Positions 1 through 12,203 of a stretch of DNA of 12,222 nucleotides are shown here, in pieces. The notes below the pieces were generated by a model. The model saw only the letters and a list, made by a program, of their open reading frames with translations, searched no databases and was not told the origin of the DNA. This DNA comes from Rodentolepis nana (Eukaryota > Platyhelminthes > Cestoda > Cyclophyllidea > Hymenolepididae): assembly GCA_900617975.1 (NCBI GenBank), contig UZAE01001637.1:1-12222 (forward strand), in the 5' to 3' direction. Within the stretch, counting starts at the first letter, position 1; the number at the start of each line of letters is the position of its first letter. The position numbers and the translations under genes were made by a program.

Positions 1-248
1 GGGAGACATCAAAGTGAGAAAAAGTCGCGAGAGAGGAACAGAAGAGCGTTTCACAGATGTAAAGAGACAGATGGGCACAAATGCAGAGAAAAGGTAAGAT
101 GGGTACTGTGGAAGGGGTCGAGCATGACATACAGTGGAGGCACGATGGTTTGAAGTCAGAAGTCAACTGCCAATTAGTAAAATTTTTAGGCGCATGAGTA
201 TATGTTGCTCAGGGTGCACCATGTGGCGGTAAGTCTATCGCACACCAC
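1..248 (-). mobile_element. SINE-like retroelement with 5' HDV-like ribozyme, copy 1 (cut by window edge)
   Basis: The element reads on the minus strand: its 5' end is at 248 and its 3' end lies beyond the left edge of the window. It shares with the other copies, in the same order, the ribozyme region (180-248), the motif around GTATGTCAT/ATGACATACAG (125-134 on the plus strand), the CTGTCT/AGACAG block and the GATGTTC/GAACATC-like block near position 5. It has no reading frame kept between copies. The body is close in length to the other full copies. The 5' terminal G corresponds to C248 on the plus strand, after which similarity to the other copies stops. The target-site duplication cannot be tested because the 3' tail is missing from the window. 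Confidence 0.85.
180..248 (-). ncRNA. HDV-like self-cleaving ribozyme, degenerate copy
   Basis: The first ~70 nt of copy 1. P1 (GUGGUGU with GCACCCU) has one mismatch, the P2 5' strand AUAGACUU is intact, and P3 is ACC/GGU. L3 starts UGCC or GCC instead of UCC. The P1.1 G39 equivalent is A (UGAGCAAC). P4 is weakened, G74 has become C, and the P2 3' strand is lost (AAAAUUUU instead of AAGUCUAU). The C75 equivalent appears to be kept (complement of G189). Probably inactive. Confidence 0.6.
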
Positions 249-4300: not shown

Positions 4301-4340
4301 TTTATTTATTCATTTCAAATGGCAGGCGTTATGATAGCTA
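4301..4340 (-). mobile_element. Severely 5'-truncated tail fragment of the same retroelement
   Basis: On the minus strand this reads as the last ~23 nt of the element body (GATAGCTATCAT-like, then CGCCTGCCATTTGA on the sense strand), followed by an A/T tail matching AAATGAATAAATAAAA. It matches the 3' ends of the copies at 4875-5205 and 11875-12203. It is 5'-truncated just before the GATAGCT palindrome and followed by a (TA)n run at 4343-4363. A perfect 11-bp direct repeat (4290-4300 and 4364-4374) flanks fragment plus (TA)n. The (TA)n could be a filler sequence made during insertion or a later expansion. Confidence 0.7.
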
Positions 4341-4342
4341 GT

Positions 4343-4362
4343 GTATATATATATATATATAT
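4343..4362. repeat. (TA)n microsatellite
   Basis: About ten TA dinucleotides lie between the truncated tail fragment and the next element copy. Confidence 0.85.
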
Positions 4363-4374
4363 TTATATTTAACT
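4361..4374 (+). repeat. Target-site duplication of copy 2, left arm
   Basis: ATTTATATTTAACT. It matches 4665-4678 at 13 of 14 positions and abuts the first G of the element (4375). Confidence 0.8.
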
Positions 4375-4445
4375 GGAGTGTGCGATAGACTTACCTCCAT
4401 GTGGTGCACCCTGGGCAACGTATACTCATACGGCAAAAAGTCTTT
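4375..4445 (+). ncRNA. HDV-like self-cleaving ribozyme (near-complete)
   Basis: A hand-built double pseudoknot. P1 is 4375-4381 with 4406-4412, with a G1-U37 wobble and one A-C mismatch at position 3. J1/2 is GCG. P2 is AUAGACUU at 4385-4392, pairing with AAGUCU at 4438-4443. P3 is ACC 4393-4395 with GGU 4403-4405, and L3 is UCCAUGU. GGGCAA at 4413-4418 supplies the two Gs for P1.1 with the CC of L3. P4 is CGUAU/AUACG with loop ACUC (4419-4432). G74 is 4433 and the catalytic C75 equivalent is C4434. Predicted cleavage is 5' of G4375, exactly the element boundary given by the target-site duplication. P1-P4 order, the seven-nucleotide P1, L3 start, GGGCAAC and the J4/2 cytosine are the established marks of this ribozyme family. 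Activity is inferred, not shown. Confidence 0.8.
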
Positions 4446-4664
4446 AAGCCGGCAGTTGGCTTCTGACTTCAAACTACCAACACCCCACCGTATGTCATAT
4501 TCGACATCTTCACAGTACTCACCTAACCTTTTTCCTTTGAAACTCTTCTGTTCCTCCCCCTCTCGACTTTTTTTCATTTTGATGTTCCTTCCCCTTTGTG
4601 AAGCTTGAAGTCAACTAAAGGGCTAATGATAGCCATCAAAATGCCTGCCATTTGATATAAATAA
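4375..4664 (+). mobile_element. SINE-like retroelement with 5' HDV-like ribozyme, copy 2
   Basis: A complete-ended copy of about 290 bp. It begins with the ribozyme, continues through the shared GACTTC/CAAACTACCA and GTATGTCATATTCGAC blocks, and lacks about 40 bp of the CTGTCT block present in the 8472-8799 copy. It ends in CCTGCCATTTGATATAAATAA. A 14-bp target-site duplication with one mismatch lies directly on both ends. The open frames across it (both strands) are not conserved in other copies. It shares the GATATAAATAA tail variant with the copy at 7186-7365, which suggests a common subfamily. It points toward copy 3, with the two 3' tails facing each other. Confidence 0.88.
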
Positions 4665-4678
4665 ATTTATATTTAGCT
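4665..4678 (+). repeat. Target-site duplication of copy 2, right arm
   Basis: ATTTATATTTAGCT, one mismatch to 4361-4374. It follows the A/T tail of the element. Confidence 0.8.
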
Positions 4679-4874: not shown

Positions 4875-5205
4875 TTTATTTATCTATTTATTTCAAATGG
4901 CAGGCGTTTTGATAGTTATCATAGCCATTTAGTTGACTTCAGGCTTCACACAAGGGAAGAACATCAAAGTGAGAAAAAGTCGAGAGGGGAAATAGAAGAA
5001 TGAATTAGAGATGTAAAAGCGACAGACAGACACAAAGGCAGAGAAAGAAAGAGAGGTGAGTACTGTGGGAGTGGTTAAATATGGCATACAGTAGGGTCAT
5101 GATAGCTTGAAGTCCGAAATCGATTTCCGTTTTATAGACTTTTTTGCCGTATGAGTATATGTTGCTCAGGGTGCACCACGTGGAGGTAAGTCTATTGCAC
5201 ACCCC
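4875..5205 (-). mobile_element. SINE-like retroelement with 5' HDV-like ribozyme, copy 3
   Basis: A full-length copy of about 331 bp on the minus strand. The plus strand shows the complement of a (AAAT)n-type tail (4875-4894), then AAATGGCAGGCGTTTTGATAG, and then the full body with GACAGACAGACACAAAG (5022-5038). The ribozyme complement ends at 5205, followed by two extra C residues (5206-5207). A 13-bp direct repeat with two mismatches flanks it. The two extra Gs at the 5' end could be non-templated additions or G-run slippage. Confidence 0.88.
5134..5205 (-). ncRNA. HDV-like self-cleaving ribozyme, one P1.1 change
   Basis: Read on the minus strand from 5205. P1 GGGGUGU pairs fully with GCACCCU, including the G1-U37 and U7-G31 wobbles. 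P2 is AUAGACUU/AAGUCUAU (8 bp), P3 is ACC/GGU, and L3 is UCCACGU. The G39 equivalent is A (UGAGCAAC), which removes one of the two P1.1 pairs. P4 is CAUAU/AUACG with an A-C mismatch. The C75 equivalent is the complement of G5146, followed by AAAA. P1, P2, P3 and L3 are otherwise the best preserved in the window. Cleavage is predicted to be weak or lost because of the P1.1 change. Confidence 0.75.
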
Positions 5206-7171: not shown

Positions 7172-7185
7172 ATATTGACATAATC
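7172..7185 (+). repeat. Target-site duplication of copy 4, left arm
   Basis: ATATTGACATAATC, a perfect 14-bp match to 7366-7379. Confidence 0.9.
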
Positions 7186-7365
7186 ATGATCCCACTGTAT
7201 GTCATATTCGACTACTTTCACAGTACTCACCTCACCTCTTTTCTACCTTTCTACCTTCGTCTCGACTTTCTTTCTCTTTAATGTTCCTTCCTCTCCATAA
7301 AGCCCGAAGTCAACTAAAGGGCTAATGATAACCATCAAAGCACCTGCCATTTGATATAAATAAAT
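7186..7365 (+). mobile_element. 5'-truncated SINE-like retroelement, copy 4
   Basis: A 180-bp 3' part of the same family. It starts within the CCCACTGTATGTCATATTCG block and continues through CACAGTACTCACCT, CTCGACTTTC, GATGTTCC-like and CCCGAAGTCAACTAAAGG to CCTGCCATTTGATATAAATAA. The ribozyme and first ~110 nt are absent. A perfect 14-bp target-site duplication abuts both ends, so the truncation happened during insertion and not by later decay, as is usual for LINE-driven reverse transcription. It shares the deletion of the CTGTCT block and the GATATAAATAA tail with copy 2. Confidence 0.9.
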
Positions 7366-8336: not shown

Positions 8337-8433
8337 CAAATTAAATCAAATGCCGAGTGATAGACTTTTTTTTCCCGTACAAAGATATGTTGTCCAGGGT
8401 GCACCACGTGGAAGTAAGTCTATCGCGCACCCC
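8337..8433 (-). mobile_element. 97-bp mini-element: HDV-like ribozyme joined directly to the 3' tail, copy 5
   Basis: The minus strand holds the complete ribozyme region (8360-8433) followed at once by GGCATTTGATTTAATTTG-type sequence (8337-8359) that resembles the family 3' end CTGCCATTTGA plus A/T tail. The ~230-bp body is missing. The junction lies at CTATCA, a sequence similar to both the P2 3' strand (GTCTATA) and the 3' palindrome (CTATCAAAA), so a microhomology-mediated deletion or reverse-transcriptase jump is likely. A 13-bp direct repeat with one mismatch abuts both ends, including the first ribozyme G. This shows insertion as a unit. The alternative is a deletion after insertion of a full copy; both leave the same flanks. 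Confidence 0.75.
8360..8433 (-). ncRNA. HDV-like ribozyme with C75-to-G change (predicted inactive)
   Basis: P1 GGGGUGC pairs with GCACCCU over all seven positions, the last pair being C-G instead of the family's usual U-G wobble. P2 is AUAGACUU/AAGUCUAU (8 bp), P3 is ACU/GGU, and L3 is UCCACGU. The GGGCAA segment reads GGACAA. After P4 the sequence is GGGAAAA, so the position of the catalytic cytosine (complement of C8374) is G. In the known family this cytosine acts in acid-base catalysis, so this copy is expected to be dead although its helices are well kept. Confidence 0.7.
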
Positions 8434-8471: not shown

Positions 8472-8542
8472 GGGGTGTGCGATAGACTTACCTCCACGGG
8501 GTTCACTTTGGGCAACGTTTACTCATACGGCGAAAAGTCTAT
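8472..8542 (+). ncRNA. HDV-like self-cleaving ribozyme with a GCGAA J4/2
   Basis: P1 is GGGGUGU (8472-8478) with UCACUUU (8503-8509), weakened to wobbles and one U-U. P2 is AUAGACUU at 8482-8489 with AAGUCUAU at 8535-8542. P3 is ACC/GGU and L3 is UCCACGG. GGGCAA at 8510-8515 keeps the P1.1 Gs. P4 is CGUUU/AUACG with loop ACUC and one mismatch. J4/2 is GCGAA, with the catalytic C75 equivalent at 8531, which is the classical CGAA form, whereas other copies have CAAAA. P1 changes probably reduce activity. Confidence 0.75.
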
Positions 8543-8799
8543 TGATCGGCAGTTGACTTCTGACTTCAAACTACCAAGATCCCACTGAATTTCATATTCG
8601 AATAACTTCACAGCATTCACCTCCCCTTTTTTTCTACCTTTGTGTCCGTCTGTCTCTTTAGCGTCTGTGAATCATTAATCTATCCCTCTCTCGACTTTTT
8701 GCCACTTTGATGTTCCTCTTTCTTTCTGTGAAGCCCGAAGCCAACTAAAGGTCTAATGATACCTATCATAACTCCTGCCATTTGAAATATATATATATG
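8472..8799 (+). mobile_element. SINE-like retroelement with 5' HDV-like ribozyme, copy 6 (full length)
   Basis: A full copy of about 328 bp containing every block of the family: the ribozyme, TTGACTTCTGACTTCAAAC, the TTTGTGTCCGTCTGTCTC block, GTCTGTGAATC, CTCTCGACTTTTTG, TTTGATGTTCC, GTGAAGCCCGAAGC, the TAATGATACCTATCA palindrome and CCTGCCATTTGAAATATAT with a TA-rich tail. An 11-bp target-site duplication with one mismatch flanks it. It is transcribed away from copy 5, with the two predicted ribozyme start sites 38 bp apart. No open frame is shared with other copies. Confidence 0.9.
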
Positions 8800-10377: not shown

Positions 10378-10672
10378 AAAGGTTGCCTAACTCTGTAGAT
10401 AAGCCCATTGGTTGACTTGGAGCTTCACAGAAAGAAGGAGGAGCATCAAGGTGGAAAAAGTCGAGAGGGGGAATCACAGATGTAAGAGCAGCAGACAGAC
10501 ACAAAGGTAGAGAAAAGGTAAGGTGAGTATTGTGGAAGTAGTCGAATATGACGTACAGTGGGGTTATGGTAGTTTGAGGTCAGAAGTGAACTGTCAGTTT
10601 AAAGACATCTTTGCCTTATGATTGTACGTTGTCCAGATTGCACCATGAGGAGGTAAGTCTATCGAACACCCC
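10378..10672 (-). mobile_element. SINE-like retroelement, degenerate copy 7
   Basis: A minus-strand copy. Similarity is clear from about 10399 (AGCCCATTGGTTGACTTGG on the plus strand) to 10672, including GCAGACAGACACAAAGG, GTCGAATATGACGTACAG and GAGGTAAGTCTATCG. The 3' end (10378-10398) is diverged: CAGGCGTTTTGATAG is replaced by a loosely similar sequence and no clean (AAAT)n tail is left. I could not find a convincing target-site duplication. It is probably one of the older copies. Confidence 0.8.
10602..10672 (-). ncRNA. HDV-like ribozyme, degenerate copy
   Basis: The P1 3' strand is GCAAUCU (mismatch with the GGGGUGU start), P2 has a mismatch (GAUGUCU), L3 is UCCUCAU, the G40 equivalent is A, and P4 is broken (AUCAUAAG). 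The C75 equivalent remains (complement of G10613) within GGCAAAG. Likely inactive. Confidence 0.55.
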
Positions 10673-11874: not shown

Positions 11875-12203
11875 TTTATTTATTTATTTCAAATGGCAGG
11901 CGTTTTGATAGATATCATTAGCCATTTAGCTGACTTCGGGCTTCACAGAGGGAAGTTTCATCAAAGTAGAAGAAAGGCGATGGGTGGGGAACAGAAGAGC
12001 GATTCACAGATGTAAAAGAGGCAGACAGACACAAAGGTAGAGAAAAAGGTAAGATGTGTACTGTGGAAGGGGTCGAATATGACATACAGTGGGGTCATGG
12101 CAGTTTGAAATCAGAAGTCAACTGCCGGTTTATAGACTTTTTTGCCGTATGAGAATACGTTGCCCAGGGTGCACCACGTGAAGGTAAGTCTATCGCACAC
12201 CTC
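11875..12203 (-). mobile_element. SINE-like retroelement with 5' HDV-like ribozyme, copy 8 (full length)
   Basis: A full copy of about 329 bp on the minus strand. The plus strand shows the complement of the (AAAT)n tail (11875-11890), AAATGGCAGGCGTTTTGATAG, the GACTTCGGGCTTCACAGAG block, ATTCACAGATGTAAAAGAGG, CAGACAGACACAAAGG, GTCGAATATGACATACAG and the ribozyme complement ending at 12203. A partly decayed 13-bp direct repeat lies at both ends. It is the closest relative of copy 3 in the tail region. Confidence 0.9.
12132..12203 (-). ncRNA. HDV-like self-cleaving ribozyme (near-complete)
   Basis: Read from 12203. P1 is GAGGUGU with GCACCCU (one A-C mismatch at position 2, G1-U37 kept), J1/2 is GCG, P2 is AUAGACUU/AAGUCUAU (8 bp) and P3 is ACC/GGU. 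L3 is UUCACGU, so one P1.1 pair becomes a U-G wobble. GGGCAA is intact. P4 is CGUAU/AUACG with loop UCUC, and the C75 equivalent is the complement of G12144 in GGCAAAA. With copy 2 it is one of the two best candidates for residual cleavage. Confidence 0.75.

Follow-up and report, generated by a model that had tools for sequence, protein, structure and literature searches.

A dispersed short element of the tapeworm Rodentolepis nana that shares both ends with a LINE and begins with a predicted HDV-like ribozyme

Introduction

Outside the tapeworm family described here, short partners of LINEs that carry an HDV ribozyme are known from trypanosomes and from the rDNA of fruit flies (PMC4035085; PMC3414825). 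The Drosophila R2 SIDEs described in PMC3414825 resemble the tapeworm element in that a ribozyme of the HDV type stands at the 5′ end, the middle part has no known origin and the 3′ end is that of an autonomous LINE; R2Dwi_SIDE, at 529 bp, joins the ribozyme to 197 bp of unknown origin and the R2 3′ end (PMC3414825). The R2 SIDEs occupy 28S rRNA genes and are described there as uncommon (PMC3414825), whereas the tapeworm copies are dispersed. According to PMC4035085, the trypanosome pairs L1Tc/NARTc and ingi/RIME each combine a LINE encoding endonuclease, reverse transcriptase (RT) and RNase H with a short partner, and both partners share the 77-nt HDV-like Pr77 at the 5′ end. The tapeworm pair is likened to these by description, and it differs from them in that their hosts are protists and in that Pr77 is also a promoter, with cleavage shown in vitro (PMC4035085). 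HDV-like ribozymes at 5′ ends are further reported in R2 (including planarian R2), R4/Dong, RTE, Baggins1 and L1Tc, with cleavage at the 5′ end of the element in R4, Dong, Baggins and L1Tc (PMC3774820). Their presence in flatworms as such is therefore not new, planarian R2 being an example; R2, R4/Dong, RTE and Baggins1, however, are other LINE types than the tapeworm LINE (PMC3774820), which in comparison with R2 carries a domain for RNase H and is not restricted to rDNA. Among the titles listed from the open-licence literature there was no dispersed animal short partner with an HDV-like ribozyme and, for a Hymenolepis or cestode ribozyme in a retroelement, no tapeworm case; those on HDV-like ribozymes in SINEs dealt with trypanosomes, R2 and RNA circles.

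Here, we analyse a stretch of 12,222 nt from R. nana (contig UZAE01001637.1), referred to throughout as the window. An earlier note on its sequence had taken the host to be an animal, and the COX1 of the assembly agrees with this: translated with the flatworm mitochondrial code, it has its nearest named matches in Pseudanoplocephala crawfordi (87%) and Taenia (85%), with 89% reached by one unnamed sequence, as befits a cyclophyllidean tapeworm.

Results

The one ribozyme-like fold in the window that our descriptor matched (see below) lies at 4375..4445 on the forward strand. When the pairing was read by eye, P1 was formed by 4375-4381 with 4406-4412 (one A.C mismatch), P2 by 4385-4392 with 4438-4445 (one T.T mismatch), P3 by 4393-4395 with 4403-4405 around the L3 sequence TCCATGT, and P1.1 by CC at 4397-4398 with GG at 4413-4414, while P4 (4419-4423 with 4428-4432) ended in a C-G closing pair and was followed by G4433-C4434-AAA. 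The predicted cut site is immediately 5′ of G4375, and C4434 is the predicted equivalent of the catalytic C75. On the short-element consensus the nested double pseudoknot P1-P2-P3-P1.1-P4 is complete, with 7, 8, 3, 2 and 5 bp in P1, P2, P3, P1.1 and P4, respectively, within the first ~72 nt; the seven P1 pairs of the LINE consensus are all perfect. The catalytic C75 is retained in 67 of 72 rows of a short-element group and in 14 of 16 rows of a LINE group, the 88 rows having been split by text pattern so that six LINE ends (L063, L082, L084, L086, L092 and window copy 8433) are counted among the 72. In 10 of the 16 LINE rows, the P4 position next to the loop is a U.U mismatch. An alternative register of P1, two bases further in (GGUGUGC), was rejected; by eye it suits a few copies but not the LINE, and it misfits the insertion boundary.

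A profile search located nine pieces of the element in the window, seven with a 5′ end and two 5′-truncated. The first bases of the seven are at 4375 (+), 5205 (-), 12203 (-), 8472 (+), 10672 (-), 248 (-) and 8433 (-). The focal ribozyme heads a full-length short element (a SIDE/SINE copy) at 4375..4666 (+), which scored 301 bits with nhmmer over model positions 1-308. It is flanked by a target-site duplication (TSD) of 14 nt with one mismatch and an offset of 0; the last base of the 5′ copy (4361..4374) directly precedes G1, and the 3′ copy (4665..4678), placed on the sequence, overlaps the A/T tail. Three further full-length short elements were identified by the profile, at 4883..5205 (-), with a ribozyme at 5205-5134, at 11878..12203 (-), with a ribozyme at 12203-12132, and at 8472..8794 (+), with a decayed ribozyme at 8472-8542. 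Decayed ribozymes are also present at 10672-10601 in a copy that lacks the last ~40 model positions (10399..10672, -) and at 248-177 in a copy at the window edge (6..248, -; model positions 3-227). The seventh, at 8343..8433 (-), covers only model positions 1-89 and, compared by eye with LINE 5′ ends, is a LINE-type 5′-end fragment (GGACAAC, CTTTGTAC, TCACTCGGCATTTGATTT) in which C75 is changed. The two remaining pieces are a 5′-truncated short element without a ribozyme at 7182..7364 (+; model positions 102-307) and a 3′-tail fragment at 4305..4340 (-; model positions 272-307).

At E up to 10, six of the seven 5′ ends were recognized by the Rfam model RF02682 (HDV-F-prausnitzii), which is named from a gut bacterium. 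The highest score was 42.2 bits (E 3.7e-5, at 12201-12132 in the copy beginning at 12203), followed by 38.6 bits for copy 5205, 37.5 bits for copy 4375 (at 4377-4446), and 23.9, 20.8 and 19.1 bits for the decayed ribozymes of copies 8472, 10672 and 248; copy 8433 gave no match, and no copy in the window reached the cut-off of 44 bits. Across the assembly (107.1 Mb in 4,701 contigs) the same model gave at least 59 matches, at least 37 of them above the cut-off and the best at 54.5 bits; these counts are lower bounds because scoring extended to only 61 of the 25,212 first-look candidates. None of 14 control genomes gave an RF02682 match. RF00094, the model of the founding family, reached at best 33.7 bits in the window against a cut-off of 50 and, at E 0.001, matched nothing in the assembly, nor in the control genomes. 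The proposal that Rfam models of the HDV ribozyme would recognize the element thus held for RF02682, with scores above its cut-off genome-wide, and failed for RF00094 at genome scale. RF02682 and the tapeworm ribozyme are both compact (~74 model positions) and nearly identical over the P3/L3 region. We know of no retroelement context for RF02682, and the likeness may reflect compact architecture alone.

As the Rfam models omit the P2 pseudoknot, we wrote a pseudoknot-aware descriptor that specifies the catalytic GC and L3 along with P1 (one mismatch allowed), P2, P3, P1.1 and P4. The copies whose 5′ end is complete number 98, including 24 situated in loci fetched for the LINE; the descriptor matched 39 of them and failed in the other 59. 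There was no match outside element copies in 267,710 bases searched on both strands, nor in 40 Mb of single-strand, first-order Markov sequence modelled on the same loci. The descriptor was composed after the element had been seen, so this zero background speaks for its specificity and not for an independent discovery. In the window only copy 4375 matched among the seven, even with two P1 mismatches permitted, from which it follows that most window copies have decayed. The earlier note had counted seven copies with an HDV-like end, a number borne out by the seven 5′ ends located here, and its interpretation of them as HDV-like ribozymes heading a dispersed short retroelement is supported.

The consensus of the short element is 308 nt long. 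At 82-90% identity, positions 1 to ~97 correspond to the LINE 5′ end and ~233-308 to its 3′ end, so that the first ~100 nt and the last ~75 nt are common to both elements. The middle ~130 nt gave no significant match in the LINE sequence examined, apart from a short element inside L098 and matches at chance level; no Rfam family was found across the middle of the window copies and no tRNA in the window. The layout is the one seen in an R2 SIDE (PMC3414825) and in NARTc and RIME beside L1Tc and ingi (PMC4035085). Eight matches reaching the middle part in 113,201 bases (RT, COX1 and endonuclease loci) extrapolate to very roughly 7,600 copies, an estimate that stems from a small count in loci that are not a random sample; a genome search with the short element gave 7,772 first-look candidates, of which 40 were scored. 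By eye, a small inverted repeat, TGATA..TATCA, is present in the shared 3′ end of LINE and short element at consensus ~267-279 and is a candidate for a recognition hairpin.

The same ~75-nt 3′ end was found downstream of reverse transcriptases in the assembly, and in L071 the ribozyme is located directly upstream of the LINE open frame. Querying the assembly with the LINE stretch just downstream of the ribozyme returned at least 40 places at 92% identity or more (573 first-look candidates). From the 39 places other than that of L071 itself, 20 LINE 5′ ends were fetched and all 20 begin with the ribozyme as judged by eye, the core being tandem-duplicated in L083; the query adjoined the ribozyme, so this sample covers only copies that keep the stretch. 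RF02682 matched 18 of 20 LINE sources (L071 and 19 of those fetched, L083 being left out) at E up to 1; all 18 were under the cut-off (best 40.3 of 44), and L089 and L092 gave no match. The LINE frame begins ~100 nt after G1 (by eye). Domain searches of open frames identified RVT_1 and RNase_H (L074) and Exo_endo_phos_2 (L099), with no domain found in the short stretch of L098. Internally deleted LINE copies that keep both ends are represented by L071, L095 and L096, L095 being only about 580 nt long. Among named hosts, the closest matches to the LINE protein came from R. nana, at 88% across half of the query, and from Hymenolepis microstoma, at 76%; the names BS and X-element attached to database sources are annotation only. 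This LINE is probably the element that mobilises the short copies.

The 5′ boundary was examined for both partners. Across 19 LINE copies, a set that excludes L083, the base composition stays near background up to position -2, and from +1 onwards 84-100% of copies have the same base; position -1 is T in 13 of the 19 and in 26 of 55 short elements. Exact TSDs of at least 8 nt, with a median length of 13, flank 21 of 50 full short elements, and 13 of these abut G1, while shuffled pairs gave a mean of 0.7 and a maximum of 4. When one mismatch was allowed, TSDs were found for 32 of 50 copies (shuffled rate, 6%), and in 20 of the 32, including window copy 4375, they end at G1. The remaining 12 comprise three with one extra T, which is perhaps untemplated, three with two extra bases and six that are 6 to 86 nt off; 18 of the 50 full copies have no TSD at the chosen score. 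A stricter score, reached by 0.4% of shuffled pairs, left 19 of 50 copies, 13 of them at G1. Thirty of the copies in the TSD, covariation and descriptor sets had been selected on their Rfam score. The 3′ tail is alike in the LINE and the short element, and a TSD was observed for only one LINE-derived copy. In L011 (~1201-1241, -) an inverted piece of the 3′ tail, preceded by GGGGTGTA, lies between the TSD and G1, an arrangement that may have arisen through twin priming, as a 5′ inversion.

Two loci carry longer additional sequence in front of the element. In L019 (G000:C736, 1584-1656, -) a tRNA-Pro with anticodon CGG and a further 11 nt stand just upstream of a short element, and two perfect copies of a 13-nt TSD enclose tRNA and element together. 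Two G separate the TSD from the tRNA start given by ARAGORN, and P1 of the short element is damaged (by eye). R2 copies with a tRNA at the 5′ junction are attributed to template jumps in PMC3414825, where a CCA end proved the tRNA to be mature. The tRNA in L019 has no CCA and is followed by TTT, as would be expected of a Pol III transcript before processing, or of read-through from a tRNA gene; by analogy with R2, the locus resembles the product of a template jump in which a tRNA transcript was copied during insertion. In L095, taken together with L087 (G000:C99, ~32,430-33,060), the TSD is long and is separated from G1 by 28 additional bases, and P1 is again damaged. RNAs left untrimmed at G1 could account for both loci, but a pair of examples is no proof, and P1 may have been damaged after insertion.

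Covariation was considered as proof of the fold and dropped. Double changes occupy 5 of 1,743 pair cells in the short-element group and 0 of 398 in the LINE group, all within one genome, and a wobble test was neutral, one-sided transitions keeping the pair in 15 instances and breaking it in 16; 92% and 93% of cells, respectively, are able to pair. Since dead copies of a few sources look alike either way, this shortage of covariation neither supports nor refutes function. In 21 copies that had not been picked by score, conservation was 0.917 in the ribozyme part, 0.835 in the middle and 0.887 in the 3′ part, the well-conserved 3′ part being as expected if both ends of the element matter.

Discussion

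The short element shares its ends with a LINE, has its boundary at G1 and lacks Pol III boxes, and for these reasons we regard it as a LINE-derived short element of the kind represented by SIDE or NARTc. Taking together the fold recognized by model and descriptor, the ends held in common, the 5′ boundary and the lack of recognisable Pol III signals, we consider it highly probable that this is a LINE-derived, non-autonomous element whose 5′ end is set by an HDV-like ribozyme. We propose that the element is borne in a longer transcript, a likely source of which would be host read-through, and that the ribozyme would cut just before the first G of P1 to leave an RNA beginning at the first base of the element. 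Release from a longer transcript by self-cleavage would be the simplest way to obtain such an RNA. The LINE protein, with its endonuclease, reverse transcriptase and RNase H, could then recognise the shared ~75-nt 3′ end and, acting in trans, insert a copy of the short RNA through target-primed reverse transcription. New copies of an RNA freed by cleavage at that site would end at G1, so the scheme predicts a boundary there.

The same boundary is expected of a Pol II start at G1, and a start at this base would likewise yield exact 5′ ends. Another explanation is that the conserved first ~100 nt serve chiefly as an internal promoter for Pol II, with the HDV-like fold a relic or a minor activity. 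Pr77 of trypanosomes combines promoter and ribozyme (PMC4035085), and neither a covariation nor a wobble signal was obtained here. However, a promoter has no need of P1-P2-P3-P1.1-P4, a catalytic C or the L3 motifs, and the ribozyme motifs match an independently built model and fall in the best-conserved part of the element; we consider a mainly promoter function to be unlikely. Still less probable, to a degree that we would put as very slight, is an ordinary Pol III SINE with a chance likeness to a ribozyme. Its length of 308 nt, its TSDs, its repeated tail rich in A/T and its copy number in the thousands would all suit such an element, but no A or B box on the sense strand of the consensus was better than those in shuffles and runs of at least four T lie inside all 55 full copies (at least five in 46), which makes Pol III transcription unlikely and led us to reject the canonical class. 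Moreover, the window contains no tRNA, the descriptor found nothing in 40 Mb of random sequence, and the LINE has the same 5′ end. Least likely of all is a retrozyme-like element spreading via circular RNA: animal retrozymes are described as short non-LTR elements (PMC7761336) and ribozyme-core repeats of ~39-41 nt are in tandem at L010 and L083, but those repeats are partial ribozymes and not whole tandem units, the element itself is built with one ribozyme, has the 3′ end of a LINE and is bounded by TSDs at G1, and the ribozymes of plant retrozymes are hammerheads (PMC4918200).

With a LINE-derived element headed by an HDV-like ribozyme as the preferred reading, the tapeworm pair looks like a further animal example of ribozyme-headed jumping elements, and with its dispersed copies, thousands in number, it would add a third setting to the two in which this solution is known. 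Ribozyme-headed elements may also explain some of the unclassified repeats in tapeworm genomes. As the copies, their boundaries and the partner LINE have been located, the proposal is readily testable, and it raises the question of what effect thousands of potentially self-cutting sequences have on host transcripts. A bolder version, which we offer tentatively and consider somewhat less probable than its negation, is that LINE and short element form a dispersed animal pair outside rDNA in which both partners are promoterless and both depend on the HDV ribozyme for their 5′ end, that thousands of ribozyme copies, situated within host transcription units, cut host transcripts, and that the copy joined to tRNA-Pro illustrates a possible turn into a Pol III SINE.

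Two local arrangements were also noted among the loci. Head-to-tail repeats of ~39-48 nt from the ribozyme region occur at L010 (2785-2941), L016 (~1467-1572), L028 (~1502-1700) and L083, and their phase differs between loci. In L005, two short elements at 527 and 1808 (-) have an identical 5′ flank of 22 nt and are probably a local or assembly duplication.
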